Assembly (NCBI GenBank): GCA_030429485.1
Contig: JAUIFD010000001.1
Location: 1-64,000 of the forward strand
Source of the DNA: Phycisphaerae bacterium
GTDB taxonomy: Bacteria; Planctomycetota; Phycisphaerae; Phycisphaerales; UBA1924
Direction: 5' to 3'
DNA: 64,000 nucleotides
In this document: in pieces, positions 6,728 to 61,700 of the stretch
Position numbering within the stretch: position 1 is the stretch's first letter
Layout: every line of letters begins with the position of its first letter
The notes under the pieces: model-generated
Database searches by the model: none
Told to the model about the DNA's origin: nothing
Seen by the model: the letters and a program-made list of their open reading frames with translations, nothing else
Program-made: the position numbers and the translations under genes

Positions 6728-6844
6728 CGAACGAGAAGGGGGCGAAAGGCGAACGAGGGGAGCGAACCGGCGCGACCGGCGAGCCCTACACTGATTTCAG
6801 AAGATCGTGAAAGCCGCGGATGTGCCCGGCTCGCAGGAGGCGTG

Positions 6845-17088: not shown

Positions 17089-17206
17089 CAAGCTCTCGGC
17101 CAAATTGCGGTTGATTCTGGACTTCCGCGATCCCCGCGGCAGGGTGACCGGTACCTTGCGTGTGCTGCACGCGCGCCGGGGTGCGATGGCTGGGAGGGTC
17201 ACGTCC

Positions 17207-20200
17207 ATGCTTCGATTGTCACTTGTGATATGCGCCTGCGTGTTTGGGGTGCTGTCTCCACTCGCGGTGGCCCAGGAGGCACGTGATGACGGGCCGCCTG
17301 CTCAGGCGGAGCGCTATTACGACGCGCTGGTGCGGCGCCCGGAGCCGGGGTACGTCTTCGACCGGTTCTGCCGGGCATGGCTCGGGGCGGCGTCGAGCGA
17401 TTCGCTCGAGGAGTACCTCACCCAGCGGGCGGAGGAAGGCGATGCAGCGGAGCAGTTGCTGCTCGCGTTCTACATGGCCCGCGAAGGGCGCAACGTCGAG
17501 GCGATCGAGCGCTTTCGTAAGACGCTCGCCGAGCATCCGGAGTACGCGTCGGCCTGGTACGAGAAGGCGCGCGTTGAGGCCGCGACGCTCGACTTCGAGA
17601 CGGCGCTCTCGGATCTCGACCACGCCGCAGAGGCGGTGGGTGCGGACAACGAGCTCGCGCTCAAAGTCGCGAAGCTGCGCGGGCGATTGCTGGCGCGCAC
17701 AGGGAGGCGTGAGGAAGCATGGGCGCTCTGGGCGGCGATGATCGAGACGTACCCCGATGACGAGTTGCTCGCGGAGGACCTCGTGCAGCTTCAGGCCGAC
17801 GAGGGCCTCATCGACGAGGCACTCGTGACGCTTGACGGGCTGATCGAGCGCACGCGAGATCCGCTCGATCGGGTCGCGCGTCGTCTGTGGTCGGGGGAGT
17901 TGCACATCCGTGCGAATCGGCGCGACGCGGCAGTGGAGACCTTCGTCGGGGCGTTGGTGGACACCGGCGCGGGCACGTGGCTCGAGCGGGAGTTGCTCGC
18001 CCGGATCGAGCGGGCGTACCGGAGTGAAGACGATCTCACCGCGCTGCGAGACAAGCTCGCGGAGTTGCGCGACCAGGAGCCGCAGCGTCTGGGCGTGGCG
18101 CAGCATCTCGCGCGGGTGCAGGCGGAGACCGGCGACATCGACGGCGCCGTCGCGACGTGGGAGGCGATCTTGGCGCGCGCTCCCGGCGATCGGGAGATCC
18201 GGACGGCGTACGCGCGCATGCTGTGGGAGGCCGGACAGAACGACCGCGCGATCGTGCAGCTCGAGGCGCTGCTCGAACGGTGGCCTGACGATTCCTCGCT
18301 GCGTCTGCGCCTGGCGGGCCTTCGCGCGGAGACGGGCGATCGCGACGGAGCGGTGCGCGACATGCGGGCGTACCTGAATGGCGCTGGGACGGACGTCTCG
18401 GTGTACGTGAACGCGGCTCGCACGCTACAGCGGCTAGGCGTTGAGGACGCGGCCGAGACGATCATGCGTGAGATGGTCGGGCACGACCCCTCGGACGCGG
18501 CGCGGCGGTTCGCGTTGGCGGAGTTTCTCTTTGATACCGACAAGGGAGGCGAGGCGGTCGCGATCTGGCGTGAGGTCGGGGCGGGGAGTGCGGACGGTGC
18601 GACGGTCGTGCTCGCGGGGCGTGCGCTGCTCAACCGGGGCAAGGCGCGCGAGGCGCTGGACGTACTCGGCGCACGGGCAGCGGACTTCGAGGGCGACACG
18701 TCGTACTTGGCGCTGGCGACCGAAGCTGCGATCGCGGGGCGCGAACCCGAGCGAGCGATCGCATGGGCGAGGTCCTGGGCCGAAGCCGCGGACGACGCGT
18801 CGGCCTTTGAGAACGCGGTCGCCGCGGCGGGTCGGGCGGCGAAGGCGGCGAAGGCGGAGCAGGCGCTCGCGGATGAGCTGAGCAACCTGGGGGCGGAGCG
18901 AACCGCAGCGCAGGCGTGCCTGCTCGCGGAGGTGTACGAGCAGCTCGGGCGTTACGACGATGCCGACCGGACCCTCGCAGCCGAGAGCGACGAGCGAGCG
19001 ATGCGATATCGCGTGCGTTTGCTCGCGGGGCGGGGTGAACACGGGCGTGCGGCGGATGCGATGGAGGCGCTGATCGAGCGGGGCAGTGGGCGGGCGGATG
19101 CTGTCCGCGATCTGGTGACGCTCCTGGAGCGGGCGGGGCGCACGAGCGATGCGCTCGATTGGATCGGGCGTTGGAAGGAGCTGCTTCCCGGCGCGACCTC
19201 GCCGTGGCTGCGCGAGGCGGAACTGCATCGAAGCCAGGGCGATCAGGACGCGGCGCTGGCGTGCCTGGAGCGCGCGTATCGGCAGTTCCCGAATGACATG
19301 ACGGTCGCGTCGTCGCTTGGCGCCGCGTACGAGGACGCCGGGCAGGTCAACGACGCGGAACGCATTTACTGGGACCTGTACGACGCTGCGGAATCGACGG
19401 CGACGCGGGTGCAGTGGGCGGGGCGGCTCGCGGAGGTCGCGGAGTGGTCGGGACGAACGGATCATCTTGTGCAGACCCTGAACGAGCGGCGTGAGGCCAA
19501 CCGCACCAGCATCGTGCCGCTGCTGGCGTTGGCGGAGGTGCATCGGGTCGCGGACCGGTACGAGGAGAGGCGCGAGGCGCTGATTGAGGCGTCGCGGGTC
19601 GACCCGGAGAACATCGACCTGCTCTTGCGGCTCGCATCGGTCGAGCAGCAGGAAGGCGACGTGGACCGCGCGATCGCAACGCTCCGGCGCGCCGCAAGCG
19701 CGGACCAGACCGGGCGCGTGCGCGAGCGCATCGCTGAGGCTCTCGTGCGCGACGGTCGGATCGAGGAGGCGCTGGCGGAGTTGACGACCTCAGACGTCGC
19801 GATGGACGCGTCGGGTGCGCTGCGGTTCGTCGATGCGCTCGCGGCGCAGGAGGCGTGGGCCGAATCGGCGGCGCTGCTCGCGCCATTCGCCGCGCAGTCG
19901 GACGACATGCAGGTGTGGTACGCGTACGGGGTCGTGCTCGAGGAGAGCGAACGCACCCATGAGGCGTGCGACGCGTTCATGCGCGTGCTGGAGTGCGAGC
20001 AGGAGCCGGCGACGGGCGCGGCTGCGCCGTCGGCGTACCTCTCGATGTGGCGTTCGTACTACGAGGGTGTGCTGCCGGAAGAGGCGTTCGAGCTGATCGA
20101 TCAGTTCGAGAGTGCGAGCATGGCGTATTCGCACCAGGGCGGCGGCGGGTACTACGCGATGATGCTGGGCGGCAGCTCGCAGGGCACGACCGTTCACTTG

Positions 20201-23200
20201 CCGGGCTCGGTGCGTGAGGGACGTTCGCTCGCGCTCTCGCACCTGGGGCAGCTGGCGTCAGAAGTCGATGACCACGAGCGGGAGCAGCTTGTCGCGGATG
20301 CCGAGGCGCGGGGCGTCGCGCTCGCGAGCCTGCTGCTGGCCGATGGCGGCTTCGACGCGGAGAGTTGGTGGGATGCGGACGTGCTCGCCGAGCATGCCGA
20401 GCACGATGGCGTGCTTGCGCTCTACGTGATCTACGGCTCATCGTGGGGCGGTGAGGGCGATCCGGAGTTGCTCGAGCGCGCGGTCGAGCGCTTCGGCGGG
20501 CAGCAGTCGGTGCTGGAGCTTGCGGCGCGGCTCACGTTGTTGGAGACGCTCGAAGAGGAGAAGGTCACGGAAGCCTGGGACGATCTCGTCGCGCTTATCG
20601 ATGGTATAGACGAGCCGCACCCGCTCGCGGTGTACTTCATGGCGGCGGTGCTCGATGGCGAGACCCTCTCCATCCCGCTCGATGATGATCGCCGCGACTA
20701 TCTGAGTCGGACGGTTCGCTCCTGGTACTCGGAGTCGGACCGCGCAAGCCCGTTCCAGGACCAGCTCTTCTCGACGGTGCTCAACATGGCGGCCGAGCAG
20801 GAGGATTGGGAGGGCGTTGGGGAGCTGCTGGAAGAGGAGATCGCGGCGCACCGTGGCTCGGGGATCGTGGCAAGAGCCTCGCAGGCGGCCCAGATGATGC
20901 GGATGTACGGCGGCATGGGCGGCGGGCAGGAGTCGATCGAGCCGTTGGGATTCCCGCCAAGCGGGCTGACCGGCGTGCCCGATTCGGTGATCGGGGCAGT
21001 CGGGGGCGGGATGTACGGCGACTACGGCGGCATCGACGCCGAAGAGACGCTTCTCGTCTTGGGCGACGGGGCTGATCCGATGCTCGTTGCGTTGCTGGCG
21101 GGCGTGAGCCACGACAGTGAGCGCGTTGCTGTGGCGCTGGCGGAGTTACTCGATGCGCCGGAGCCGTCGCTCGATGCGTTCATGCTCGCGGCGGGGTGGG
21201 CGGGCGAGGAGGGCGAGCCGGCGCGCGCGGTGTCGCTCCTTGAGCAAGCGTCGTACCTCCCGATGTCACGGCCGACGCGCGAGCGGATCGACAGGGCGAC
21301 CGTCGCGTATGCGCTGGAGACCGACCTGACGGGCCCGGTGGCCGAGTCCGGGCGGCGTGCTGCGATGCGTTTGCTGTACGCGGCTCGCTCGCCGCAGGCG
21401 CGCGGAGCGCTCGTTGGCGCGTTGGAGCAGCTTGGGCTCGAGGATGAAGCGGAGCGCGAACGCGAGCGATTGGCGGCTCAGCCGGCCCAGCCTCGTGGGG
21501 GGTACTACCCCGGCGCTCCCGCGACTTCAGACATCGATCGGATCCGCGAGATGATCGACGACGGGCGCACCGACGCGGCTGTGCGCCTCGCGGTGCGCCA
21601 GCTCGAGCAGTTCGGCGCGTTGGCGCTGGCCGGTCAGTATCAGATGATGCAGCGCTGGGGTGAGGAGGACGAGGCGGCGCGCCTGCGTCGTGTGATTGAG
21701 AGGGCCGAACTTGCCGCACGCGTGCTCGAGGAAGCCGATCCGGGCGAGAGCGCAAACGCCCGTCAACTCGCGAGCTTTGGCGGAGTGCTCGAGGTGTATG
21801 GCGAGGCGGAGCGGGCGGAGCAGGCGTACGCACGGGCGCTCGAACTCCGGTACGAGGCCATGCCCGCGGCCCGCGTGATCCTGATGCGGACGGAACGCGA
21901 GGCGTTCGACCAAGCGGCGGCGGTGCTGGATCTCGCGGATGAGCGTCAATCCGCGGAGGTCGGCGCTCAGCTCCAACAGGTGATCGCCATGTCGATGGGC
22001 GATGGAGAGGAGGAGCTCTTCCGTCTCGGCGAGCTCGCGCTGTGCTGGCTCGGGATGACCGAAGGCGTGGGGGAGCGTGACGCGAGCTGGATCGCCGGCG
22101 TGGTCCAGGGGCTCGCCAACCTGCGCAGCGTGGATGGCGTCGAGGTGCCGCCGCTCTACGCGAACGAGCGCGAGGTCGACGAGGACGCCGTCGAAGCCGA
22201 CCAGCGTCGAAACGCGCTCCACACGCGGCTTGTCGAGGCGATGCTGGAGGTTGAGTCGATCAGTGGATCGGCATTCCCGCACCGCCTCGCGCTTGCCGAA
22301 CTGGAAGGCGACGACCTGAGCGAGCTCGTCGATGTCGCGAGGGTGGCGGTCGGGCTAGACCTCGACGTCTCGCAGCTCCAGCAGATGGTGTATTCGTCGT
22401 ACATGTTCGGCATGTACGGCGAGGACAAGGTCGAGACGATCCGGTTGCGATCCGCGCTGGAGTTTCTCGCGGAGCGGGCGGCGGAGAGTCCGGAACTCGC
22501 CGAGGAAGTGCACGGGATGCTCGATGGGCGGATGCGTCGCGAGCGCACCGCGCAGTTTGACGGGCTCCGTGCGCTCTATGGCGCCGGTGAGGAGGCGTTC
22601 GCAGAAGCTGCGGAGGACTATCTCGGCGCGAGTGTCTCGCCGATGACCATGATGGAGGATCGTCTGGGGACCGTGGTCGACATCCTCGAACGCCGCGGCC
22701 TGGCGCCGACGCTGATCCTGGATGTGGTCGTGGAGTATGTGAGCGACTCGGACCGCGCATCGGGCATGGGCTTCGGGATGGGGGATGCTGCCCTGAGCGG
22801 GTACGTCAGCGCGGTGATCGAGCACGGCGGGTACGACGCGGGGCGCCGGGTTGTGGAGGCGCTCGCGGAGCATCTGGTGGGGCCGGCCGACGAGCGTGCC
22901 GCGTTGATCGAGCAGCACTACGACCCGGAGCGGGGTGGATCGACGCGCACGGCGAACGGGCGGATGCACGCGTTCGTCGAAGCGATCACGCCGCTCCTGC
23001 AGTCGGAGCGGACGATCTGGATCGCGCTCGAGTACTACGAGCCGTTCGACGATCCCGAGTCGTCGTATCAGATGCAGTGGGCGAGCAGCGTGGTGAGCCA
23101 GGCGATGATGCGCACGATGGAAGATGAAGACGCGGGGCCGGTGCTCGCATTGCTCGAGCATTCGCCGGTCATCGGAGAGTTGCGACGGTTCCGCACGTAT

Positions 23201-25951
23201 CCGGTGGCGTGGAGTGAGGCGAGCATCTTCTCCTCGTTCACGATGCCGACGACGCCGGAGGTGAAGAAGCAGATGCTCGGTTGGCTCGGTGAGCGGGAGC
23301 CGCGCACGATCGGCGTCGTGCTCTTGGAGGGCGCGCTGCGAGAGGACCCGTGGGCGAAGCGGCTTGAAGCGATGGCGCCGTGGAGCGAGGCTCTGCTCGA
23401 GGCGGACGCGAAGGTGATCGAGGAGATCGCTCAGATCGTGCCGCCGCACCGGGCCCTGCCTGAGGGCCTCTCGCCCGAGGCGCACGCGGTGGCCGATCGG
23501 CTCTACGGCTTCGTCGGCTCGAAGCTGGACGCCGAGTTCGCGGAGTTGATGGAGACGACGCGCATCGACAGCGACGAGGCCTGGCAGATCGCGAGGCGCG
23601 CGGGCGAGACCCTCGTCTCGCTCTGCCGGGCTGATCGCGAAGCGGACGCCAGTGCGCTCGCCGAGCACCTGATGCCGCTCATGAACCGGTCGAGCCAGCG
23701 CCAGGGACGGTCGGGGTACGACGCGCGCGTGATGCTCGCCGAGACGCTCTGGCAGAGCGCCGGTGGCGACGCCGCAGCGACAGCTCTGGGCGTGTGGGTG
23801 TTTGACCAGGCCGATGCGGCTCAGAGCCCGAACGCCCTCTGGAGCGCGCTCTCGATGGTGCGATGGGAGGCCGAGCCGATCGACGGGGGGAACGAGCAGG
23901 CGGGGAAGACCTGTGCCATGCTCCGAGCGATCCGCGACGCGCTGCCCGAGGGGACCGACGCGCTTCTCGCGGCGCCCGACTTGGCGAAGGTGATGGCGCA
24001 GTTTGCTTCAGATGAAGACATCGCGAGCCTGAGCGTGTGGATTGAGGCCGCGGCGGCGAGCGAACCGGAAGAGCCTTTCTGGAGAGAGGCGCGCGGCGCG
24101 GTTGCGCTGAGTGCGACACTCATCAAGAGAGACTCAGAAGGCGATGACAGTGGCGGCGAGCCGGACGCTGTTGCCGTGATCGACGGCGCAGAGCTGGACG
24201 GCTATCTGGCGGCCGTCGCGGCGCGTGAGGATGCGCCCGCGAGTGTGCGCCTCCGGGTGGTGAGCATGCCGCTCTCGGAGCATGCCGAGCAGCTGCCGAT
24301 GGCCTCCGTTGCTGCGCCGGCGCTGGCTGTCCAAGCTATGCGCGATGAGCCGGAGTCGATTGAAGCCGACTGGGTGCTTCCGGTGGCGATCCAGCTCGCC
24401 CACGCGGTGCAGAGCGACGCGGGCCGGCGGGCGGAAGCGATCGACTTCTTGGATGCGCTGCTACGCGCGGCGTCTCGGTCAGCCGGCCTCGTGGGCGCGC
24501 CTCGGGCATTCACGCTCGGCGCCCCCGACTACTCCACGCCCAACACCCTGGGGATCGAGGCCTTGCGGCTGGCGCTCGCGGCGGGCTCGCCCAATCACGC
24601 GCGGCGTCTGCTCAACAACCAGGACGGAGCGCTCGCGCAATCGATCGCGGCGTGGGCCATGCTCGTCGAGCAGGGCGAGGTCGAGCAGGCGGTGACGGTG
24701 ATCGATCGGTACTGGGATGAGGCGGTCGTCTCGTACCCCGATGGGATCACGTACTCGGGCGCGATCGACGCTCGTCTGGATGAGGTGCTCGGGGCCGTGT
24801 CCGGCGATGACGCCCGCTGCATGGCACGCATCGCTTTGGGTTCGCTCCCGGACCCGGATGGGCCGTTGGAGTTTGCGGATCGCGCGGAGCGCGTCGCCGG
24901 ACTTGTCGAGGTGTTCCGCGGGCACGAGTTTGGGGACGAGAAGGGACGACTCGCGACGCTCGCGGTGCTCACGTCGTCGGAGCCGGGGCTTGAACTCGCG
25001 GGGCCGGACGCGATTCAGGCGGTCGCGAACTTCGACGAGCTGACCTACGACGAGGCGCAGGACCGGTGGGACCGGACGACGCCGGAGTTCGAGGTGCTCT
25101 ACGCAGCGGCCCGCGCCGCGATGCGGACCGGGCGCGAGCAGTTGATCGCGGGCGAGATCCTGCGGCTCGCGAACTACGAGAGCGGATACTGGGTCTGGCG
25201 GGTGCTGGAGTCGCTCCAGGACATCTTCTCCGAGGAGTTCATGGATCGCGCCGATGCGATCTCGCTCGCTGAAGCGCTCGAGATGACGGACCTCGCCGGC
25301 TTGATCGTGTATCCGCGTGAGGATTGGAAGCGCCCCGCCCGCGACGAGGTCTTTGCGCTGCACTTCCTGCTGCGCACGCTCGGTGAGGGTGAGGGTGGAT
25401 TCGACGCGTGGCTGGAGCGTGAGGAGATCGAGCCGGACATGCAGCAACTCGAGGTGGAGATCATGTCCACGCTGCTCGGGCGACTTCTCGCCGACGACTT
25501 GCTTACGCCCGACGATCGCCTGGCGAGAATCCGGCTGGTCTTCGGGAGTGAACACGTGCAACGCGCGTTCGACGACCACGACTCGGTGTTCGAGGAGTTG
25601 CATCGCCCGGGCGCATTGACGAGCGAGCAGATCGCCGAGCACGGCGTTGAGCTGGCGGAGCTGTTGAGTGATGAGGCGTGGATGGCCCTGGCGTTCGGGG
25701 CCGCGGAGGCCGATCTTGGTGAGATGGCCGATGACGCATGGCGCCGGGTGATGGAGTCGAAGACCTCGATGGACGATCGGCTCCATTACATCGGTCATAT
25801 CATGGATTCGAAGCGGTTTGCGCTCGCGTCGGCGTATCTCGAAGGGCTTGAGCCCGCGACCGAGGAGTTGAGGGAGAAGCACGCGGGCTTGGTTCGGCGC
25901 GCGAACGACGGGATGGAGGGACGTTTGCATGAAGACTCCGATGAAGACTGA
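17207..25951 (+). CDS. Giant exported TPR-type repeat protein (2,914 residues)
   Basis: ATG 17207 is preceded by GGGAGG and followed by a clean signal peptide (LRLSLVICACVFGVLSPLAVAQE, cleavage near residue 22), so the protein is exported, probably periplasmic. The first 950 residues are rows of TPR-like helices (ALVTLDGLIERTRDPLDR, AVATWEAILARAPGDRE, AIVQLEALLERWPDDSS). Later parts are helical and more divergent. Short Gly/Met/Tyr-rich inserts break the repeats near residues 973-1000, 1230-1280 and 1425-1445. No enzymatic motif was found. It heads an operon with MoxR and VWA genes and is likely a scaffold partner; that role is inferred. Confidence 0.8.
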   Translation: MLRLSLVICACVFGVLSPLAVAQEARDDGPPAQAERYYDALVRRPEPGYVFDRFCRAWLGAASSDSLEEYLTQRAEEGDAAEQLLLAFYMAREGRNVEAIERFRKTLAEHPEYASAWYEKARVEAATLDFETALSDLDHAAEAVGADNELALKVAKLRGRLLARTGRREEAWALWAAMIETYPDDELLAEDLVQLQADEGLIDEALVTLDGLIERTRDPLDRVARRLWSGELHIRANRRDAAVETFVGALVDTGAGTWLERELLARIERAYRSEDDLTALRDKLAELRDQEPQRLGVAQHLARVQAETGDIDGAVATWEAILARAPGDREIRTAYARMLWEAGQNDRAIVQLEALLERWPDDSSLRLRLAGLRAETGDRDGAVRDMRAYLNGAGTDVSVYVNAARTLQRLGVEDAAETIMREMVGHDPSDAARRFALAEFLFDTDKGGEAVAIWREVGAGSADGATVVLAGRALLNRGKAREALDVLGARAADFEGDTSYLALATEAAIAGREPERAIAWARSWAEAADDASAFENAVAAAGRAAKAAKAEQALADELSNLGAERTAAQACLLAEVYEQLGRYDDADRTLAAESDERAMRYRVRLLAGRGEHGRAADAMEALIERGSGRADAVRDLVTLLERAGRTSDALDWIGRWKELLPGATSPWLREAELHRSQGDQDAALACLERAYRQFPNDMTVASSLGAAYEDAGQVNDAERIYWDLYDAAESTATRVQWAGRLAEVAEWSGRTDHLVQTLNERREANRTSIVPLLALAEVHRVADRYEERREALIEASRVDPENIDLLLRLASVEQQEGDVDRAIATLRRAASADQTGRVRERIAEALVRDGRIEEALAELTTSDVAMDASGALRFVDALAAQEAWAESAALLAPFAAQSDDMQVWYAYGVVLEESERTHEACDAFMRVLECEQEPATGAAAPSAYLSMWRSYYEGVLPEEAFELIDQFESASMAYSHQGGGGYYAMMLGGSSQGTTVHLPGSVREGRSLALSHLGQLASEVDDHEREQLVADAEARGVALASLLLADGGFDAESWWDADVLAEHAEHDGVLALYVIYGSSWGGEGDPELLERAVERFGGQQSVLELAARLTLLETLEEEKVTEAWDDLVALIDGIDEPHPLAVYFMAAVLDGETLSIPLDDDRRDYLSRTVRSWYSESDRASPFQDQLFSTVLNMAAEQEDWEGVGELLEEEIAAHRGSGIVARASQAAQMMRMYGGMGGGQESIEPLGFPPSGLTGVPDSVIGAVGGGMYGDYGGIDAEETLLVLGDGADPMLVALLAGVSHDSERVAVALAELLDAPEPSLDAFMLAAGWAGEEGEPARAVSLLEQASYLPMSRPTRERIDRATVAYALETDLTGPVAESGRRAAMRLLYAARSPQARGALVGALEQLGLEDEAERERERLAAQPAQPRGGYYPGAPATSDIDRIREMIDDGRTDAAVRLAVRQLEQFGALALAGQYQMMQRWGEEDEAARLRRVIERAELAARVLEEADPGESANARQLASFGGVLEVYGEAERAEQAYARALELRYEAMPAARVILMRTEREAFDQAAAVLDLADERQSAEVGAQLQQVIAMSMGDGEEELFRLGELALCWLGMTEGVGERDASWIAGVVQGLANLRSVDGVEVPPLYANEREVDEDAVEADQRRNALHTRLVEAMLEVESISGSAFPHRLALAELEGDDLSELVDVARVAVGLDLDVSQLQQMVYSSYMFGMYGEDKVETIRLRSALEFLAERAAESPELAEEVHGMLDGRMRRERTAQFDGLRALYGAGEEAFAEAAEDYLGASVSPMTMMEDRLGTVVDILERRGLAPTLILDVVVEYVSDSDRASGMGFGMGDAALSGYVSAVIEHGGYDAGRRVVEALAEHLVGPADERAALIEQHYDPERGGSTRTANGRMHAFVEAITPLLQSERTIWIALEYYEPFDDPESSYQMQWASSVVSQAMMRTMEDEDAGPVLALLEHSPVIGELRRFRTYPVAWSEASIFSSFTMPTTPEVKKQMLGWLGEREPRTIGVVLLEGALREDPWAKRLEAMAPWSEALLEADAKVIEEIAQIVPPHRALPEGLSPEAHAVADRLYGFVGSKLDAEFAELMETTRIDSDEAWQIARRAGETLVSLCRADREADASALAEHLMPLMNRSSQRQGRSGYDARVMLAETLWQSAGGDAAATALGVWVFDQADAAQSPNALWSALSMVRWEAEPIDGGNEQAGKTCAMLRAIRDALPEGTDALLAAPDLAKVMAQFASDEDIASLSVWIEAAAASEPEEPFWREARGAVALSATLIKRDSEGDDSGGEPDAVAVIDGAELDGYLAAVAAREDAPASVRLRVVSMPLSEHAEQLPMASVAAPALAVQAMRDEPESIEADWVLPVAIQLAHAVQSDAGRRAEAIDFLDALLRAASRSAGLVGAPRAFTLGAPDYSTPNTLGIEALRLALAAGSPNHARRLLNNQDGALAQSIAAWAMLVEQGEVEQAVTVIDRYWDEAVVSYPDGITYSGAIDARLDEVLGAVSGDDARCMARIALGSLPDPDGPLEFADRAERVAGLVEVFRGHEFGDEKGRLATLAVLTSSEPGLELAGPDAIQAVANFDELTYDEAQDRWDRTTPEFEVLYAAARAAMRTGREQLIAGEILRLANYESGYWVWRVLESLQDIFSEEFMDRADAISLAEALEMTDLAGLIVYPREDWKRPARDEVFALHFLLRTLGEGEGGFDAWLEREEIEPDMQQLEVEIMSTLLGRLLADDLLTPDDRLARIRLVFGSEHVQRAFDDHDSVFEELHRPGALTSEQIAEHGVELAELLSDEAWMALAFGAAEADLGEMADDAWRRVMESKTSMDDRLHYIGHIMDSKRFALASAYLEGLEPATEELREKHAGLVRRANDGMEGRLHEDSDED

Positions 25952-34659: not shown

Positions 34660-34735
34660 CTCCGCGGTTCCGATGGCGGGGAGGATGCCGTACGCTGTCG
34701 ATCCCGGACGACCCGGGCAGCGAGGGCCGGCGGCG

Positions 34736-35584
34736 ATGAGCGATCAAGCGAAGAGGTGCGTGGGGTGTGGGGTGGATTGCTCCGATCGCCCGCGGGTGAA
34801 AGACAAGAACGGGCGCTATCTGTGCCGGTCGTGTTACGACGCTCGCAAGGCGACGCGCCCGTCAGAGAGCGATGTCGCGACCAAGGGCCTTCCGGTCGTC
34901 GATTCCGGGGCGCAGACGGGCACCCGCCCTCCCGTTGCCGATGGGCTTGACGAGGGGTACGGGCTGGCGAGCGATGAGCCGCGGCGAGCGCCCTCCGCGG
35001 GCGCTCCGAGCGACGCGGATGTGATGGCCAACCTCCTCGCGGAGGACCTCAACCCCGGCACCGAGCAGTGCCCGGAGTGCAGGGCGCGGATCAAGCAGGG
35101 CGCCGTCATCTGCAGCAACTGCGGGTACAACAAGGTGACGGGCAAAGCGGTGCAGACGCGTGTGCTCAAGGCGCTTGAGGCGAAGGAGTCCAAGGGCAGC
35201 GGGCGCACTCGAACCCTCGAGATCCCCGGATGGGTCATCCCGACCGTGGTCGCTGCTGGATACTGCGGGCTCGGGTACTACGCGACGATTGACGAGATGG
35301 CGTGGATGGCGTGGATGGTCACCGCGGGGGTGTTCTTTCTCGCGTGCTACGTGTGGGGGCTCGTCGCGGCGTTCCAAGAGGGTGAGACAACCTGGGGTGT
35401 GATGGGGATCGTTGGTGCGTTCTGCTGCGCGCCGCTCCAACTCGTGTTCATCATCTGGTCGATTCTCCAGACGCATCGCCCGGTCATGTCGGGGCTCATG
35501 CTGGTGAACTTCATCTCCTATGTCGCGGCGTTGATTGTCGGGCATACGACATGGGACAGCCTGTCGCAGTACATGGAGCCATAG
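34736..35584 (+). CDS. Membrane protein with two zinc-ribbon modules
   Basis: 282 residues from ATG 34736 (MSDQAKRCVGCG). The N-terminus has CVGCGVDC...YLCRSC, then a disordered linker, then CPECRARIKQGAVICSNCGYN, giving two four-cysteine zinc sites. Four TM segments follow (about residues 160-176, 188-212, 221-243, 255-272). No enzymatic motif. The protein may sense or scaffold at the membrane, which is speculation. The next gene starts within 10 bases of its end. Confidence 0.65.
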   Translation: MSDQAKRCVGCGVDCSDRPRVKDKNGRYLCRSCYDARKATRPSESDVATKGLPVVDSGAQTGTRPPVADGLDEGYGLASDEPRRAPSAGAPSDADVMANLLAEDLNPGTEQCPECRARIKQGAVICSNCGYNKVTGKAVQTRVLKALEAKESKGSGRTRTLEIPGWVIPTVVAAGYCGLGYYATIDEMAWMAWMVTAGVFFLACYVWGLVAAFQEGETTWGVMGIVGAFCCAPLQLVFIIWSILQTHRPVMSGLMLVNFISYVAALIVGHTTWDSLSQYMEP

Positions 35585-35592
35585 GAGACACG

Positions 35593-36750
35593 TTGGGGGT
35601 CCTTCAAGGCGAACGCGTGGTTTTCACCGGTCGGCTTGCGTCGATGTCGCGCCGTCGGGCCGAAGCGCTTGTTCTCAGTCTCGGCGCCGAGGTTACGTCG
35701 AGTGTCTCGGGTCGCACCACGCTCGTCGTGATCGGCGCGCGCGGATGGCCCTTGCGTCCCGACGGCGGGCTTTCCGTCGCGATCGAGCGTGCCGAGCGTC
35801 TTCGTGCGCGAGGCTCGCGTTTGCGGGTCGTGTCCGAGGATCAGTTCCTTGAACTCACCGGATCGCGCGAGACGCGCGAGGTTCCGGCGAAGCTCTACAC
35901 CGCGGAGCAGGTGAGCGAACTGGTCGGCGCGGACGTCGCCGAGATTCAGCGGTGGGAGCGTCTGGGGCTCGTGCGCGCCGATGGCGAGGGGCGGTTCGAC
36001 TTTCAGGACATCGTGTCGCTGCGCGCGATCTCGGAGCTGATCGGGCGTGGTGTGGATCCGGCGAGCGTCACACGGTCCTTGCGATCGCTCGCCCAGTTCG
36101 TCACAGGCACCGAACACTCAATCGCGCAGCTGCGGATCGTCGCGGAGGGATCGGGTGAACTCGCCGCGCAGATCGGGGAAGCGCTCGTTGCGCCCGATGG
36201 GCAACACCTCTTCGATTTCGAGAAGCCGGTTGGGCCGGCGCCTTCCCAACTCGAGCACAAGACGGACCGAGCCGCCTTGGCGCCGCCGCCGATCGGCAAC
36301 GCACGCGCGTTCCTTGAGCAGGCCGCGGAGTGGGAGGAGGAGGAGCGATACGACGTCGCGGCTGACCTCTATCGGCGTGCGATCGCACGAGACCCTGGAT
36401 CATCGACGCTGCACTTCAATCTCGCGAACGCTGTGCGCCTTCTGGGGCGCGCCGAAGCGGCGGAGGAGCTCTATCGCCTTGCGGTGGCGCTCGACCCGGA
36501 GAACGCGGTCGCGTGGTACAACCTCGCCGACATCCTCGAAGAGGACGACCGTCTGGAGGACGCCGCAGCCTGTCTGCGCGAGGCGGTGCGTGCGTCGCCC
36601 GGATTTGCGGATGCGCACTTCAACCTGGCGACGTGCCTCGAAGCGATGGAGCGAGAGGACGAGGCCGCGCAGCACTGGCGCGCGTACTTGCGCGAGGACC
36701 CGACGAGCGAGTGGTCACAGATCGCGCGGGCGCGCCTTGCTGGTGCCTAG
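35593..36750 (+). CDS. BRCT-MerR-type HTH-TPR fusion protein
   Basis: About 385 residues. TTG 35593 is preferred because AGGAGA lies 4 bases upstream; an ATG at 35551 would overlap the previous gene and lacks a ribosome-binding site. Order of domains: BRCT (GERVVFTGRLASMSRRRAEALV, GAEVTSSVSGRTTLVVIG, about residues 5-95), a MerR-like winged HTH (YTAEQVSELVGADVAEIQRWERLGLV, 105-170), a linker, then three TPR-like repeats (ALYRRAIARDPGSS style, 235-380). BRCT modules usually occur in DNA-repair proteins. The combination suggests a nucleic-acid-linked regulator; function unknown. Confidence 0.75.
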   Translation: MGVLQGERVVFTGRLASMSRRRAEALVLSLGAEVTSSVSGRTTLVVIGARGWPLRPDGGLSVAIERAERLRARGSRLRVVSEDQFLELTGSRETREVPAKLYTAEQVSELVGADVAEIQRWERLGLVRADGEGRFDFQDIVSLRAISELIGRGVDPASVTRSLRSLAQFVTGTEHSIAQLRIVAEGSGELAAQIGEALVAPDGQHLFDFEKPVGPAPSQLEHKTDRAALAPPPIGNARAFLEQAAEWEEEERYDVAADLYRRAIARDPGSSTLHFNLANAVRLLGRAEAAEELYRLAVALDPENAVAWYNLADILEEDDRLEDAAACLREAVRASPGFADAHFNLATCLEAMEREDEAAQHWRAYLREDPTSEWSQIARARLAGA

Positions 36751-37398: not shown

Positions 37399-37544
37399 AG
37401 ACATCTCCTCTCGCGTCAGCACTTCCAATGTGCCCCATCACCGGGCTGCGGCAAGGGAACCCACGTCGACATGCGCAATCCGGGGGAACCGAGGGCCAGC
37501 GAAAGCCCGTGCCCGCGGCAGAACCCCTCGCCGTACCGTATGCC

Positions 37545-39281
37545 ATGCCCACGCTGCCACCGCTTCCAGGTGCTCGTCCGGTCCGCGCTCCCCGTGGCTC
37601 GACCCTCCGATGCAAGACCTGGCAGGCCGAAGCCGCCCTCCGCATGCTCATGAACAACCTCGACCCAGAGGTCGCCGAGCATCCGGATGCCCTGGTGGTC
37701 TACGGGGGGCGTGGGCAGGCGGCCCGCTCGTGGGCCGCGTTCGACGCCATTGTCGCGAGCCTCGAATCGCTCGAGCCCGATGAGACCTTGCTTGTCCAGT
37801 CGGGCAAGCCCGTCGGCATCGTGCGCACGCACGCGGACGCGCCGCGCGTGCTCATCGCCAACTCCAACCTCGTGCCACACTGGGCGACGCAGACGCACTT
37901 CGACGAGCTCGCTGCGAAGGGCCTGGTGATGTTCGGGCAGATGACCGCGGGCTCGTGGATCTACATCGGCACGCAGGGCATCTTGCAGGGCACGTACGAG
38001 ACTTTCGCCGAGGCGGCGCGCACGCGCTTCGGCGGGTCGCTCGCCGGCACGCTCACCGTGACCGCCGGCTGCGGCGGGATGGGCGGCGCCCAGCCGCTCT
38101 CCGTCACCCTCAACGGCGGTGCGTGCCTCATCGCCGATGTCGACCACACGCGACTCCAGCGCCGTCTCGACGATCGCTATCTCACCGAATACGAGCGCAC
38201 GTGGACTATCGATGAGGCGATCGACCGTGCGCTCGTGCACAAGCAAGCCCAGCGCGCAGTCTCCGTTGGTGTGTGTGCCAACGCGGTGGACCTGCTCGCA
38301 CGGCTCGTCGAACGCGACATCACGCCCGAACTCCTGACCGATCAGACCTCCGCGCATGATCCGCTCGTGGGGTATGTGCCGGAAGGGCTGAGCTTTGAGG
38401 AAGCGGGCGAGCTTCGTGCATGCAACGCGGGTGAGTATGTGCGTCGCTCGATGGACACGATGGAGCGGCACGTGCGCCTGATGGTGGACCTCCAATCGCG
38501 CGGCGCCATCACCTTCGACTATGGCAACAACATCCGCCAACGCGCGAAAGACAACGGGTTTGACAACGCCTTCGCCTTCCCCGGGTTTGTGCCCGCGTTT
38601 ATCCGCCCGCAGTTCTGCGTGGGGCGCGGGCCGTTCCGTTGGGCAGCTCTCTCCGGCGAGCCGACGGACATCTACAAGACCGACCACGCCCTGCTCATGC
38701 TCTTCCCCGAAGACGCGGGCGACTACAACCAGCGCCTCCACCGATGGATCAAGGGTTGCCACGCCAACCCCGATGCGCTCGTCGCCGGGCGATTCGACGA
38801 GTGCGAGCCGAGCTTTGCGTTCCAGGGGCTGCCCGCGCGCATCTGCTGGTTCGGGCTTGGCGAGCGCGACAAGGCCGGGGCGCTCTTCAACGAGATGGTC
38901 GCCCGCGGCCAACTCGCAGCCCCGATCGTCATCGGGCGAGACCACCTCGACTGCGGCTCGGTCGCGAGCCCCAACCGCGAGACCGAAGCGATGAAGGACG
39001 GCACCGACGCTGTGTCGGACTGGGCGATCCTCAACGCGATGGTCAACGTCGCGAGCGGCGCGAGCTGGGTCAGCTTCCACCACGGCGGGGGCGTGGGCAT
39101 CGGGTTCAGTCAGCACGCCGGACAGGTCATCGTCGCCGACGGCACACCGGAAGCAACGGCACGCCTCCAACGCGTGCTGACGAACGATCCGATGATGGGC
39201 ATCTTTCGACACGCGGATGCGGGGTACGAAGAGGCGCGCGGGTGCGGGCGCGAGCAGGGTGTGCGGATACCCATGGAGTAG
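37545..39281 (+). CDS. hutU: Urocanate hydratase
   Basis: 578 residues from ATG 37545. It converts urocanate to imidazolonepropionate in histidine breakdown, using NAD. The N-terminus [34 protein letters not shown] is diagnostic, and [55 protein letters not shown] and [19 protein letters not shown] match urocanase. A usual length is about 555. First gene of the hut cluster here; no hutH (histidine ammonia-lyase) is in the window. A piece of its 3' end recurs at 39570-39599. Confidence 0.96.
39242..39271 (+). repeat. Direct repeat copy 1 (3' end of hutU)
   Basis: This 30-base stretch near the hutU stop matches 39570-39599 at 27 of 30 positions. Similarity resumes weakly about 10 bases later (GTAGGCTGCG here against GTAAGCTGCG at 39614). 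Confidence 0.7.
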
Positions 39282-39317
39282 GCTGCGAGAGATGGGCCGA
39301 GTGGCGGGAGTGTCGGG

Positions 39318-39617
39318 ATGGCGCGCTGGTTGCGAGTAATCGGTGAGTTGCTCTGGGACTGGCTCGGCTACCTTGGGTTCTGCTTTCGACACATGGCTTG
39401 GGTGTTGATCGCGGCAACCCTGTTGTGGCTCATCCTCTACCTTGTATCCCCCGCCAAGTTCTCTTGGAGGCCGCTGTGCATCGCGCTGGGTGTCGGGGTG
39501 GTCTTCGCGCTCTATCCCGCTTGGGATGAACACGGGGGCCGCGTCGGGGCCCGGCGACGTTCCGCGGGCGTGCAGGCGCGAGCAGGGCGTGGGGATACCG
39601 AAGGCGGAGCTGGGTAA
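39318..39617 (+). CDS. Small membrane ORF between hutU and hutG, hypothetical
   Basis: 99 residues with two TM segments (GYLGFCFRHMAWVLIAATLLWLILYLV and LCIALGVGVVFALYP, by hydrophobicity), then an Arg/Gly/Ala-rich tail. The tail overlaps the second copy of the hutU 3' end, but in a different frame. No family is recognised, and its reality as a gene is uncertain. It may be an inserted segment between hut genes. Confidence 0.35.
   Translation: MARWLRVIGELLWDWLGYLGFCFRHMAWVLIAATLLWLILYLVSPAKFSWRPLCIALGVGVVFALYPAWDEHGGRVGARRRSAGVQARAGRGDTEGGAG
39570..39599 (+). repeat. Direct repeat copy 2 (hutU-tail copy)
   Basis: Second copy of the 30-base hutU-tail sequence. In the hutU frame it still reads CRREQGVGIP, comparable to [10 protein letters not shown] at the true hutU end. 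It lies just before hutG. Confidence 0.7.
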
Positions 39618-39626
39618 GCTGCGCCC

Positions 39627-40601
39627 GTGAGTGAATCGCACATGCACCACGGCGAGTGGCCGGTGGACGTGAACGCCTCCCGCTTCGCGGCGGGTATCGA
39701 GCGGGCGGCTTGGCCACCCGAGCCCGGCTCGTGCGCGAATCGCGTTGGCCTGCTCGGCCTGCCTGACGACCTTGGCGTGCAGCTCAACCACGGCAGGCCC
39801 GGTGCCGCGGAGGGGCCAACGGCCTTTCGCGGTGCGCTCGCGCGGTACGGGGCGCTCGAGAGCGAACCCGCGCACGCCATACCGCGCGTCGTGGACTTTG
39901 GCGACGCGCTTCCGCTGCAGGTGGCCGAGCCCGCGGCCCTCGACGAGACCCACCGGCGCGTGACCGCGGCAGCACGCGCCATCGCGGAATCCGGATACCT
40001 CCCCGTCGCCATCGGCGGCGGACACGACCTCACCTTCGCCTTCGTCCGCGGCGTGCTCGAAGCTTGCGGAATGACGGAGCCCGGGAGCGCAAGCGACCAG
40101 GGAGGGCCGGGCTCAATCGGCCCGCGCTTGTCGGGCGTCTACTTCGACGCTCACCTCGACGTGCGCGCCGAGCCCGGCTCCGGCATGCCATTCCGCCGCC
40201 TCATCGAGGCATGCGGCGTCGGGTCGCTCACCGTCTGCGGGCTCGATGAGCTCTCCAACACACGCGAGCACGCGACGTGGTTCCAGGAACACGGTGGGCG
40301 AAGATACGACGGCCCGCCCGAGTCGTTCGCTTGGCCGAGCACGCCCACGTTCGTCAGCTTCGATCTCGATGTGATCGATCAGGCGTTCGCCCCGGGCGTG
40401 AGCGCGATGAGCCCGTGCGGGTGGACGCCCGACCTCGCGGCCCGATGGTGCCGGGCTGCGGGGCGCAACCCGACCACGATCTGCTTCGACATCATGGAGC
40501 TGAGCCCGGTGCATGATGAGCGCGGGCGCACCGCGCGTCTGGCAGCCCGTCTATTCCTGGAGTTCCTGCGAGGGGTCTCCGAACGAGGCACGCCCGCGTG
40601 A
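39627..40601 (+). CDS. hutG: Formimidoylglutamase (ureohydrolase family)
   Basis: 324 residues from GTG 39627. It splits N-formimino-glutamate into glutamate and formamide. The arginase-type binuclear manganese motifs are GGGHD, DAHLDVR and FVSFDLDVIDQAFAPGVS. Its place between hutU and hutI separates it from agmatinase and arginase. The N-terminal PDDLGVQLNHGRPGAAEGP fits hutG. It overlaps hutI by 4 bases. Confidence 0.9.
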   Translation: MSESHMHHGEWPVDVNASRFAAGIERAAWPPEPGSCANRVGLLGLPDDLGVQLNHGRPGAAEGPTAFRGALARYGALESEPAHAIPRVVDFGDALPLQVAEPAALDETHRRVTAAARAIAESGYLPVAIGGGHDLTFAFVRGVLEACGMTEPGSASDQGGPGSIGPRLSGVYFDAHLDVRAEPGSGMPFRRLIEACGVGSLTVCGLDELSNTREHATWFQEHGGRRYDGPPESFAWPSTPTFVSFDLDVIDQAFAPGVSAMSPCGWTPDLAARWCRAAGRNPTTICFDIMELSPVHDERGRTARLAARLFLEFLRGVSERGTPA

Positions 40602-41824
40602 GCGTGCTCATCCACAACGCGCGTCTCGTGACGCTCGCGGGCGACTCCGACGCGCGCACGGGCGTCGCCATGCGAGATACTGGTGTCATTGAGCGCGGGT
40701 GGGTGCACACCGAAGGTGATCACATCGTGGCGCTCGGCTCAGGACAAGTGCCGGAGGAACATCGCTTGCGAGCCGCGCGAGTGATCGACGCCGACGGGCG
40801 CGCACTGCTCCCGGGGTTCGTCGATTGCCACACGCACGCATGCTGGGCGGGTGATCGACTCGACGAGTGGGAGATGCGCCTGCGCGGGGCGACGTACCTT
40901 GAGCTTCTCGAAGCCGGCGGCGGGATCATGTCCACCGTTCGGGCTGTTCGCGCCGCGAGCGAGGACGAACTGTCTGAGTCGCTGCTCGAGCGCCTCGCCG
41001 CCATGCTCGCCGAGGGCACGACGAGCGTGGAGGTCAAGAGCGGATACGGGCTGACGACCTGCGACGAACTCAAGATGCTCCGCGCCATCGTGCGTGCAGG
41101 CGAGCGCTGGCCCGGAACGCTCGTGCCGACTGCGTGCATCGGGCACGCGCTCGATCCTGACCTGCCGGACCACGTCGAGCGCGCGATCGCGGAGACCCTG
41201 CCCGCGGTGACCGCCGAGTTTCCCGGCATCGCAATCGACGCCTATTGCGAGCGGGGCGCGTGGTCGTTGGAAGATTGCCGTCGACTGTTCGATGCGGCCC
41301 GGGCCGCAGGGCATCCGTGCCGCGTCCATGCCGACCAGTTCCACGCACTCGGCATGCTCGACCTCGCGATCGAGCGAGAGTTCGTGAGCGTCGACCACCT
41401 CGAGGCGACCGACACCGAGGGGCTCGCGCGCCTCGCCTCGAGCGAGACCTTCGGCGTGATGCTCCCGTGCTCGGGGTTCCACGTCGATCAGCGCTACGCC
41501 AACGGGCGCGAGTTCCTCGACGCCGGCGGGCGCCTCGCGATCGCGACCAACTGCAACCCCGGGAGCGCCCCGTGCGTCTCCATGCCCATGGCGATGGCGC
41601 TCGCGGTGCGCGAACTCGGGCTCACACCCTCCGAGACGATCCTCGCCGCGACGCGAAGCCCATCCGCGCTGCTCTCGCTCGAAGATCGCGGCCGAATCGC
41701 CCAGGGGGCGCGAGCCGACCTCGTCGTCCTTCGCCACCAGGACGAGCGTGAACTCGCGCACGCGTTCGGCGGCGGACAGATTCACACGGTGGTGTGCGGT
41801 GGCGCCGTCATCGAACGCGACTAG
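40598..41824 (+). CDS. hutI: Imidazolonepropionase
   Basis: 408 residues from GTG 40598, overlapping the hutG stop. It hydrolyses 4-imidazolone-5-propionate to formiminoglutamate. The amidohydrolase metal motif is LPGFVDCHTHACWAGDR, then the family motif GGGIMSTVRAVRAASEDEL, KSGYGLTT, VHADQFHALGML, SVDHLEATD and ATNCNPGSAP. With hutU and hutG it gives a route from urocanate to glutamate and formamide. Confidence 0.95.
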   Translation: MSVLIHNARLVTLAGDSDARTGVAMRDTGVIERGWVHTEGDHIVALGSGQVPEEHRLRAARVIDADGRALLPGFVDCHTHACWAGDRLDEWEMRLRGATYLELLEAGGGIMSTVRAVRAASEDELSESLLERLAAMLAEGTTSVEVKSGYGLTTCDELKMLRAIVRAGERWPGTLVPTACIGHALDPDLPDHVERAIAETLPAVTAEFPGIAIDAYCERGAWSLEDCRRLFDAARAAGHPCRVHADQFHALGMLDLAIEREFVSVDHLEATDTEGLARLASSETFGVMLPCSGFHVDQRYANGREFLDAGGRLAIATNCNPGSAPCVSMPMAMALAVRELGLTPSETILAATRSPSALLSLEDRGRIAQGARADLVVLRHQDERELAHAFGGGQIHTVVCGGAVIERD

Positions 41825-57984: not shown

Positions 57985-58692
57985 CTATGGCTCGATGAGC
58001 GTCATCTCCTCCATCGGGAGCGACGGTTGGCTCGACAGCTCGCCAATCGCGGGGCTGGCTGGCAGATCGGGTGGTGCGGTCATGCTTGGCGCCGGCGTGA
58101 AGGTCTGCGCGCCCAGACGGCTCGCGATCTCCGAGGCGAGGCGGGCCGAGAGGTCCTCGTCGCGCCGGATCGCCGTCCAGAACGATGAGCCGGCTCGCTC
58201 CGCAAACACCGGATCGCGAGCGTGTCGGCTAAGCGCGATGGCCTCGGTCTCAAGCCGCCAACCCACCTCGCGCCACCGGAGCAGGTAGACCTCCACGCTC
58301 GCGGTCATTTCGCCCGCGTCGCGGACATCGGGAGGCAGATACCCACCGCTTGAAGTGGGGGAGGTGGGCTCAAAGGTCACCCGCACCTCGCGCGCCTGCC
58401 GGTTCGAGAAGTCGTCCCATTCGTCCTTGAGCGAAGACTGCTCGCGATCCCAAAGCGTGACGAACCCCGCGGTCTCCTTGGGGTGCGTCGAGATCACGCC
58501 GGCCCCCGCATCCACTCGTTCCAAGTCGAATCGATAGTCCCGAAGCACATCGCGCGTGGCGTCGAAGGCGGCGTCGTATCGGCCTGGGGCAATCGCGAAA
58601 CTCGTCCCGCCGGTGGTGGCATGCCCGCACGCGCCGAGGGTGGAGGCGATCGCAGCGAGCGAGATCCCGAGCGGGGCGAGCGTTCCGTGCAT
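57985..58692 (-). CDS. Lipoprotein of unknown function
   Basis: 235 residues from ATG 58692, giving a signal peptide with lipobox STLGAC. The mature part has YDAAFDATRDVLRDYRFDLERVDAGAGVISTHP, which resembles the N-terminal pattern of small bacterial lipoproteins with a two-layer alpha-beta fold, followed by a beta-rich region and a Pro-rich tail. Divergent from the helicase gene. No known function. Confidence 0.6.
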   Translation of the reverse strand: MHGTLAPLGISLAAIASTLGACGHATTGGTSFAIAPGRYDAAFDATRDVLRDYRFDLERVDAGAGVISTHPKETAGFVTLWDREQSSLKDEWDDFSNRQAREVRVTFEPTSPTSSGGYLPPDVRDAGEMTASVEVYLLRWREVGWRLETEAIALSRHARDPVFAERAGSSFWTAIRRDEDLSARLASEIASRLGAQTFTPAPSMTAPPDLPASPAIGELSSQPSLPMEEMTLIEP

Positions 58693-58741
58693 CGATGGCG
58701 AGGATACCTCGTCGCGAGCGTGCTCGCGTAGACTCCCGACT

Positions 58742-61700
58742 GTGACGGCGTTGGCGGAGAAAGTCGCGGACGAGGGGCTGAACGAGGCGCAGCGGCGAGC
58801 CGTGGAGCACGACGCGGGTCCGCTCATCGTGCTCGCGGGCCCCGGCACCGGGAAGACTCGCGTGATCGCGCACCGCGCGGGCCACCTGATCGGCGCGCGA
58901 CGCGCCGAACCGGAGACGCTCCTCGCGCTCACGTTCACGGTCAAGGCCGCCGGCGAGCTTCGCCAGCGACTGGCCGATCTGGTCGGCGGTGTGCGGGCGG
59001 AGCGTCTCGAGGCCCGCACCTTTCACGGGCTCTGCTGGCGCCTGCTGCATCGTTTCCCGGATCTGACGGGGCTCGGGCCTGATCCGCAGCTCATCGACTC
59101 CGCGGTGCGGCGCCGCATGTTCCGCGAAGTGATCGAGCAGATCGGCGTGTATGGCGATCAGCGTTCTGGAGGGCTCGATGCGCTCGCCTCCCAGGCGGCG
59201 AGCTTTGTTCGCGAGTGCAACAACCACGCCGTGTCACCCGAGGAGGCGTTCGCCTTCGTGGGCGTGTGGACAGAACGGCTCGCGCGGCGCCAGAGGTCGG
59301 ACGGCACGCCAGGTGACGACGCCGATCTTGAGGATCAGGGCCACGCACTCGCTCGCTTCCGCGACGATGTGCGCGTGTTTGAGGCGTACGACGCCCTCCG
59401 GCGCGAGCGTGGATATACGTCGTTCGACGACATGCTGATCGACGCGGTGCGTCTGCTGCGCGACGCGGAGCCTGCCCGCGCCGCGGTGCGCGCACAGTGG
59501 CGGCACGTACTCGTTGACGAGTTCCAGGACGTCAACCGCGCGCAGATCGAGATGCTGCGCTTGCTGTGCCCACCGGAGCGCAACCCCGACCTCGCGGTCG
59601 TGGGTGACGACGATCAGGCGATCTACGCGTTCCGCGGCGCGGACGAGCGGGCCTTCGACCATTTCTCGCACATCTGGGAGGATCACACGGTCGTCGCGCT
59701 TGAGGAGAACTATCGCTCCGCGAAGCCGATTCTCGATGCGGCGGGGGCGATCATCGAGCGAGCGAATGCCCGCTTTGAGCCGGGGAAGACGTTGCGCCGT
59801 GCGCCTTCGCTCGGTCCGGACCCGGCCGACGCGGGCGTGCTCGCGGTCGACTACCCGAAGACCGAGCCGGGCCAGGAGGCGGAGGTGATCGCGCGCATGA
59901 TCGCCGAGGACCGGGCGAGGACCGGGCGTCCGTGGCGGGAGTTCGCGGTGCTCGCTCGATCCAAGCGCCACCTCGAAGATGTCGCCGCCGCGTTGCGTGA
60001 GGAGAGCGTGCCCCATGCGGTGATCCGCGAGGGCGACCTCAACGATGAGGATGCGGTCGGCGATGCGTTCGCGTGGGCGCGGCTGCTCCTTGAGCCCGAT
60101 GCCGCGTGGGCCGCCAGGCGATTGCTCACCAAGCCGCCGTTCTCGGTCCCCCCGGCGCGCGTGGTGCAGTGGGAGGGCGAGTATCGCGCGCAGCGATCCG
60201 ATGCCGAGCGTACCGATCGGGTGTTGAGTTTCGTCGAGTGGCTCGACCGCGAAGCCCACCACCCGGCCGCAAAGCGCTTTGTGCAACGCCTGCGCGAGCT
60301 GGGCGAGATCGTCGGTGCAACATCCGCGGTCGAGGCCGTCGACGCGATCGTGACAATCGGCGAGATCGCGCACGCGGACCTCTCCAACCCGCGCGGGCGC
60401 GCCGAGCGCGTCGAGGCCGTGATCGAGTTGCTCTCCTTCGTGCGGCGGGTGCAGCCGAACCTCACCGAGCCGGGCGATCTCAAGGCATTTCTCGACCACT
60501 TCAACGACCTGGAGAAGGGCGAGCGGTGCATCTCGAACTACGCGGGCGAGGAGGCCATCGAAGGAAGCGAGGACGATCCGGAGACCGATCGCGTCCGCCT
60601 GCTCACGGCCCACGCGGCCAAGGGGCTCGAGTTTGACACCGTCTTCCTCGTGCGCGTCTACCCGGCGCAGGGCGCCTTCCCCAACACACGCCGCGACGAG
60701 GAGAGCCCGCTGCCTGCGGGGCTCGTGCCCCACGAGGACGGGCGAGACGCGAAGACCCGTCGCAGCGACGAGGAGCGTCGGTTGTTCTACGTCGCGATGA
60801 CGCGCGCGGAGCGACGGCTTGTGCTGCTGAGCCGTGAGCAGGGCAGGAGTTCATCCACGCACTTCGCGCAGGAGCTGACGCTCCGGCGCGGTGGGTCGCT
60901 CGCCACAACGGGGAAGGCGGATCGGTGGCTCGCCCGGTCCGAAGCGCCCGGGCAGCAGGAGCTCTTTCCAAAGACGCTGATCGAACGCCGTCGCATCGCG
61001 ACCGATGCCGCGAACGCGCGCCGCGTGATTCGCCTCGACGCGGCGGCCGCGCTCGCGCGGGCGGAAGACTCCAAGGGGGAGAAGGACGAGCTGCGCGCCG
61101 CGATCCAGGAGCTGACGGCGGCGGCGCGGAGGATCGCCTCGATCGATGAAGAACTCGCCGCGGCGCGCGAACCGATCACGGATCTCTCCGAGTTGTTTGC
61201 GCCGATCAAGCCGCCCCTTGAGTTGAGCTTCACCACGATCAACGCCTACCTCACCTGTCCGAGGTGCTTCTATCTCCGCCATGTCATGCGGCTCGCCGAG
61301 CCGCCTTCGGATCACCTCGTGCTCGGCAACGCAACGCACGCGACGCTCGAGCGCTACTTCTCCCTGTGGCAGGCGGCCGAGCAGGGCGGCGGCGACCTTC
61401 CAACTCTGGAGACGCTCCGCGCGATCGCGGAAGCAAGGTTCGATGCCGCGGTGGCGCGGACCCCGGCGTCGTTGCGGGTGTCGCGGGCGGACGTGATCGC
61501 GCAGGCCGAAGCGGCGATCGAGTTGCACCGCCAACTCCCTCCGGGAGACAACATCCTGGACATCGAGCAGCGCGAGGTGTTCGACTTCGAGGTCGATGGC
61601 GTCACGCACCGCATTATCGCGAAGCTCGACCGCCTCGATCAGGAGGGGGCGCAGTACCGCATCATCGATTACAAGACCGGGCGGGCGAGGGACGAACTGG

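Follow-up and report, generated by a model that had tools for sequence, protein, structure and literature searches.

Which process is served by a protein that carries a BRCT domain, a MerR-type helix-turn-helix (HTH) and TPR repeats in one chain? The question is raised by a gene in a stretch of 64,000 nucleotides of DNA from a Phycisphaerae bacterium, the whole of which is referred to here as the window. In this study, we analysed the domains of its product, the relatives of the protein and their gene neighbourhoods, and the Ku loci of the same phylum. A conserved extra gene that lies next to Ku in many families and whose product has modules for binding both DNA and proteins would add a component to a bacterial repair pathway.

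Results

The gene and its domains

The gene lies on the plus strand at positions 35551 to 36750 (from the ORF list, Pfam and a reading of the start region), and its product has 399 amino acids when counted from the ATG at 35551, from which residues are numbered throughout. The TTG at 35593 is an alternative and likely start. It stands directly after the stop codon of the preceding gene, and an AGGAG at positions 35583 to 35587, five bases upstream on the same strand, is a putative ribosome-binding site. The start at 35593 adopted in a preliminary description of this DNA is plausible for these reasons.

The BRCT region (residues 17–101; positions 35599 to 35853) scored 24.9 bits with Pfam PF00533 against a cut-off of 21.3, and the MerR-type HTH (residues 116–179; positions 35896 to 36087) scored 26.2 bits with MerR_1, PF13411, against a cut-off of 21.6. 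The TPR region (about residues 248–398; positions 36292 to 36744) was delimited by Pfam TPR models and by the helices of a single-sequence structural model; several TPR models matched at residues ~257 to 390, the best with 69.1 bits. Between the HTH and the TPR region, a linker (about residues 184–226; positions 36100 to 36228) carries a family motif, GQ....F (here G217, Q218 and F223), in which Q is kept in 65, G in 64 and F in 61 of 65 aligned rows.

As the single-sequence scores of the BRCT and MerR domains were modest, both were tested as profiles. A five-sequence profile of the BRCT-HTH half matched the BRCT domains of RFC1 (E 4.8e-6) and LigA (E 8.6e-6) in the PDB, while a 33-sequence HTH profile matched the MerR-type domains of GlnR (E 1.7e-10) and TnrA (E 1.8e-7) and also RacA, a MerR-type chromosome-anchoring protein (E 5.4e-4). 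When a family profile of 25 members was run against the PDB, 214 sequences were returned, and the best 60 of the 214 were TPR-type matches. In the single-sequence AlphaFold model of the window protein (mean pLDDT 59.2), the TPR part is confident, most pLDDT values from residue 271 onward exceeding 84, and the BRCT part is poor, with pLDDT below 50 across most of residues 1–113. The preliminary description had placed BRCT, a MerR-type HTH and TPR in a single protein, and this is confirmed: the N-terminal region does score as a BRCT domain and the HTH is of the MerR type, both by Pfam and by the profile matches, and the TPR part likewise exceeds the Pfam cut-offs.

Family members were also scanned singly with Pfam at E 1e-3, in sets of 25 and 39. 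TPR was found in all 64 members, MerR_1 in 22 of the 25 and 38 of the 39, and BRCT in only 12 and 11, respectively; a BRCT core is discernible in the alignment for most members without a Pfam BRCT match.

Spread of the family

Within the GTDB-type family of the window's genome (f1), a match at E 1e-8 was found in 7 of 163 genomes, five of them with BRCT, HTH and TPR and two with HTH and TPR only. A five-member profile at 1e-9 found a match in 17 of 400 genomes of the order and in 86 of 392 genomes of the phylum, presumably Planctomycetota, where many weak matches span only the BRCT part; matches above 118 bits occur in 49 of the 392. The BRCT-MerR-TPR protein is a conserved family. Among plasmids, 364 records matched, all of them over less than 80% of the BRCT-HTH query; a whole-protein scan of genome contigs gave two loci, both matching the TPR part only, and the PADLOC matches were weak and confined to TPR, BRCT or HTH parts. 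The order of the domains, said in the preliminary description to be unknown from described families, is real, and none of the open-access papers found in literature searches describes, by title or abstract, this architecture or a link between it and Ku or LigD.

Ku and LigD as neighbours in relatives

The loci of 64 relatives, the window excluded, were searched with custom profiles of Ku, LigD and the BRCT-MerR-TPR family. Ku and/or LigD lay beside the family gene in 22 of the 64 loci, which belong to 14 GTDB-type families (f1, f2, f6, f15, f23, f24, f27, f33, f38, f42, f48, f55, f64 and f72). Among these 22 linked loci, 21 have Ku upstream of the family gene, and in 19 the two genes share a strand. 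At most 2835 bases separate the two open frames, and some frames overlapped, partly because stop-to-stop frames were used. In two loci (L033 and L034), Ku, the family gene and LigD follow one another in this order on one strand, and Ku abuts the family gene. No fusion of the family protein with Ku or LigD was found in the 64 loci searched. With the LigD profile, a second, short ligase-like frame was seen upstream on the same strand in ten loci; the short frames of L109 (positions 7748–8668) and L112 (positions 6036–7082) are stand-alone ATP-dependent DNA ligases of roughly 300–350 amino acids according to Pfam, and they sit between Ku and the family gene.

A BRCT-bearing member together with a Ku placed independently by PF02735, on the same contig and beside the gene, was present in 17 of the 22 linked loci. 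Ku was likewise confirmed by PF02735 in L137 and L140, where the family member has no BRCT. Only pieces of Ku are found at L113 and L134, and PF02735 detected no Ku in the genome of the former and one on a different contig in that of the latter. L136 has LigD only; no Ku was found in its genome, and the N-terminal half of its family member is not readable in frame. Both Ku and LigD were confirmed by Pfam in sampled loci, the LigD of L031 being cut by the contig end. As several Ku-linked members (L137, L140 and those of f21 and f52) are without BRCT, this domain cannot be essential to the Ku link.

The BRCT domains were compared with that of RFC1 at four residues, which we take to be T415, G416, R423 and K458. 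At the aligned positions, the Ku-linked members have T in 16, G in 19, R in 16 (H in 3) and K in 10 of 19 rows, and the unlinked members, including the window protein, have T in 29, G in 38, H in 27 (R in 10) and K in 17 of 38 rows. The window protein itself carries T, G, R and Ala, the last in place of Lys.

Ku loci of the phylum

Ku (PF02735) was found in 47 of the 392 phylum genomes, and the Ku neighbourhoods of 41 of the 47 were examined (G571, G611, G639, G680, G715 and G726 were left out). A family member sits beside Ku in at least 18 of the 41, a count which is a lower bound since some Ku stretches are only 4 to 8 kb long; the other 23 examined loci contain no family member, and some of these are on short contigs. 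Included in the 18 are BRCT-less HTH-TPR members in f21 (four genomes), f33, f52 and f64, and a copy in an f32 genome (G607) that has BRCT and TPR and in which Pfam recognises no HTH. The same f32 genome has two family members, the unlinked L111 and L159 near Ku.

Within f1, Ku is present in 16 of 163 genomes, and these 16 include every one of the five that encode the full protein (hypergeometric P 4.8e-6, kinship not corrected). The family gene is adjacent to Ku in 4 of the 16 loci. As for the two f1 genomes with HTH and TPR only, G091 has Ku elsewhere and G092 has none.

The window copy and its surroundings

The window's genome encodes Ku and a three-domain LigD on another contig, C138, and the BRCT-MerR-TPR gene is beside neither of them. 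In an unrooted tree of 62 rows, built from the part after the BRCT, the window protein falls within a 12-row clade (support 100/100) in which nine rows are Ku-linked, and in a seven-row set (97/80) with four linked rows and the two BRCT-less f1 rows, L035 and L036. Downstream of the window gene, at positions 37428 to 41824, lie hutU, an arginase-family (hutG-like) gene and an amidohydrolase (hutI-like) gene; the ORF list has an opposite-strand ORF between the window gene and hutU. Upstream, a zinc-ribbon protein is encoded at positions 34673 to 35584. Linkage to zinc-ribbon genes had been proposed for checking in relatives, and it did not hold up, as this protein has no tblastn match at E 1e-5 across 105 loci. 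Elsewhere in the window, positions 58556 to 61978 encode a UvrD-type helicase with a PD-(D/E)XK nuclease domain, which is AddA-like, and positions 17105 to 25951 hold a 2948-amino-acid ORF with TPR-like repeats.

A group of relatives apart from Ku

In the 62-row tree, the 35 rows of f32, f73 and f99 form one group (support 100/98), and none of the 35 is beside Ku within the stretches fetched. At least five changes of the linked/unlinked label are needed on this unrooted tree. Together, f32 and f73 account for 34 of the 49 genomes with a match above 118 bits, and Ku is present in only 2 of these 34; of the remaining 15, 13 have Ku, in G578 as fragments only. With no Ku detected in 32 of the 34 f32 and f73 genomes, the occurrence of the family protein is not restricted to Ku-bearing genomes.

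The f32/f73/f99 group retains the HTH and the TPR. In 19 of 25 clustered f32 loci, the family gene is divergent from one neighbour gene, which is serine hydroxymethyltransferase (SHMT) in both cases tested with Pfam. A dyad, GGTAC-N5-GTACC (at most one mismatch), lies between SHMT and the family gene in eight of the nine loci L097 to L105 (not in L099), all from one f32 genus, close relatives and near-copies of each other. One weaker match to the dyad, further off, was seen in L094, and Rfam at gathering thresholds gave no match in L097, L099 or L102. This unlinked, mostly Ku-less group offers a ready reference for the function that the protein has by itself.

Discussion

Since many relatives are encoded beside Ku and LigD, the machinery for rejoining broken DNA ends probably includes this protein as a further, so far undescribed part. 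That it is an accessory component of non-homologous end joining (NHEJ), working with Ku and LigD and belonging to an undescribed family, is our leading reading, and we hold it tentatively. The protein would then probably act as a DNA-binding scaffold at the break. We envisage that: the MerR-type HTH would hold duplex DNA; the BRCT domain, of the RFC1/LigA type, might contact the 5'-phosphorylated end or a repair partner; the TPR tail might hold Ku, LigD or, where a cluster encodes it, the small ATP ligase; and ends and enzymes would thereby stay together. The domain make-up, the conservation of the family and the repeated Ku/LigD neighbourhood in 14 families support an accessory role in NHEJ. 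The earlier suggestion of a DNA-linked signalling protein survives in part: a DNA-linked role fits, but signalling is unsupported, the neighbourhoods of the relatives pointing to DNA end joining instead. The window copy is apart from the Ku-LigD locus, yet both are present in the genome and the protein branches inside a mostly Ku-linked clade. However, a role in end joining only is opposed by the 35-row group that is never beside Ku and by the 32 of 34 f32 and f73 genomes without Ku. Further counterpoints are that the window gene is unlinked, that 23 of the 41 Ku loci examined have no family member, that several Ku-linked members lack BRCT, that the 64 loci contain no fusion to Ku or LigD, and that the RFC1 lysine is an alanine in the window protein and kept in only 10 of 19 linked rows.

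The chief rival to the break-end scaffold, which we consider rather unlikely, is a MerR-type transcription regulator of the Ku and LigD genes, whose HTH would sit at the operon promoter and whose BRCT and TPR parts would switch the repair genes upon sensing DNA breaks or a partner. Regulators are often located in the operons they control, and the position of the family gene beside Ku and LigD fits this habit. The HTH is closest to those of GlnR and TnrA, which are one-component regulators, and the dyad between the family gene and the divergent SHMT gene in an unlinked genus would suit a regulator as well. However, this dyad is confined to near-copies in close relatives, and no consistent dyad was found upstream of Ku in the nine scorable regions: L110 scored above every one of 40 shuffles and L132 above all except three, and the other seven were ordinary. 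Regulation alone would not explain the BRCT domain either.

Third, and less probable again, the protein might bind DNA more generally, at breaks or in association with the chromosome; certain lineages would have recruited it to NHEJ clusters, and in the window's genome it would have this general role instead of one in NHEJ. Such a protein would agree with the HTH and TPR being kept in a large unlinked group of mostly Ku-less genomes, with the unlinked window copy and with the match of the HTH profile to RacA, but it sits less well with the branching of the window copy in a mostly Ku-linked clade and with the presence of Ku and LigD in its genome. The genes downstream in the window might instead suggest a regulator or member of histidine utilisation (hut), an idea to which we give very little credence. 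Although homologues of hutU and of the hutG-like and hutI-like genes also occur in the loci of two BRCT-less HTH-TPR members (L035 and L036), and in L036 the hutI-like gene precedes the family gene and shares its strand, these are only 2 of 105 loci, their arrangement differs, and the opposite-strand ORF separates the window gene from hutU.

The scaffold that we favour can be set beside known systems. The BRCT domains of RFC1 and LigA are the best PDB matches of the family BRCT, and the Thr-Gly pair and the Arg/His are largely kept; however, the family BRCT comes without a clamp-loader or ligase fusion, and the Lys is patchy and replaced by Ala in the window protein. According to one study, the isolated RFC1 BRCT binds recessed 5'-phosphate DNA tightly, and with whole RFC the difference between 5'-phosphate and 5'-hydroxyl is not measurable (PMC9293004). 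The family HTH resembles the GlnR/TnrA-type MerR regulators, but the family adds an N-terminal BRCT and a C-terminal TPR, and the inter-helix wing is shorter in the clade of the window protein.

Bacterial NHEJ is presented as Ku plus LigD in published abstracts, and relatives of the window protein are encoded beside these two; excerpts of three papers contain no description of a BRCT-MerR-TPR partner of this pathway (PMC7719229, PMC8656161, PMC9226535). In eukaryotes, excerpts of the literature tie BRCT to end joining in Pol lambda, Pol mu, TdT and ligase IV (PMC10386641, PMC9226535); a BRCT with a link to end joining is common to these proteins and the family, and the other domains differ. 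With more hesitation than for an accessory role as such, we suggest a scaffold convergent with these eukaryotic factors, in which an RFC1-type BRCT would grip the 5'-phosphorylated end, a repurposed MerR HTH the duplex, and the TPRs Ku, LigD and a small ATP ligase. NHEJ in these bacteria would then have three or four components. We regard the system as NHEJ by Ku and LigD to which an optional protein, from a family not yet described, has been added.
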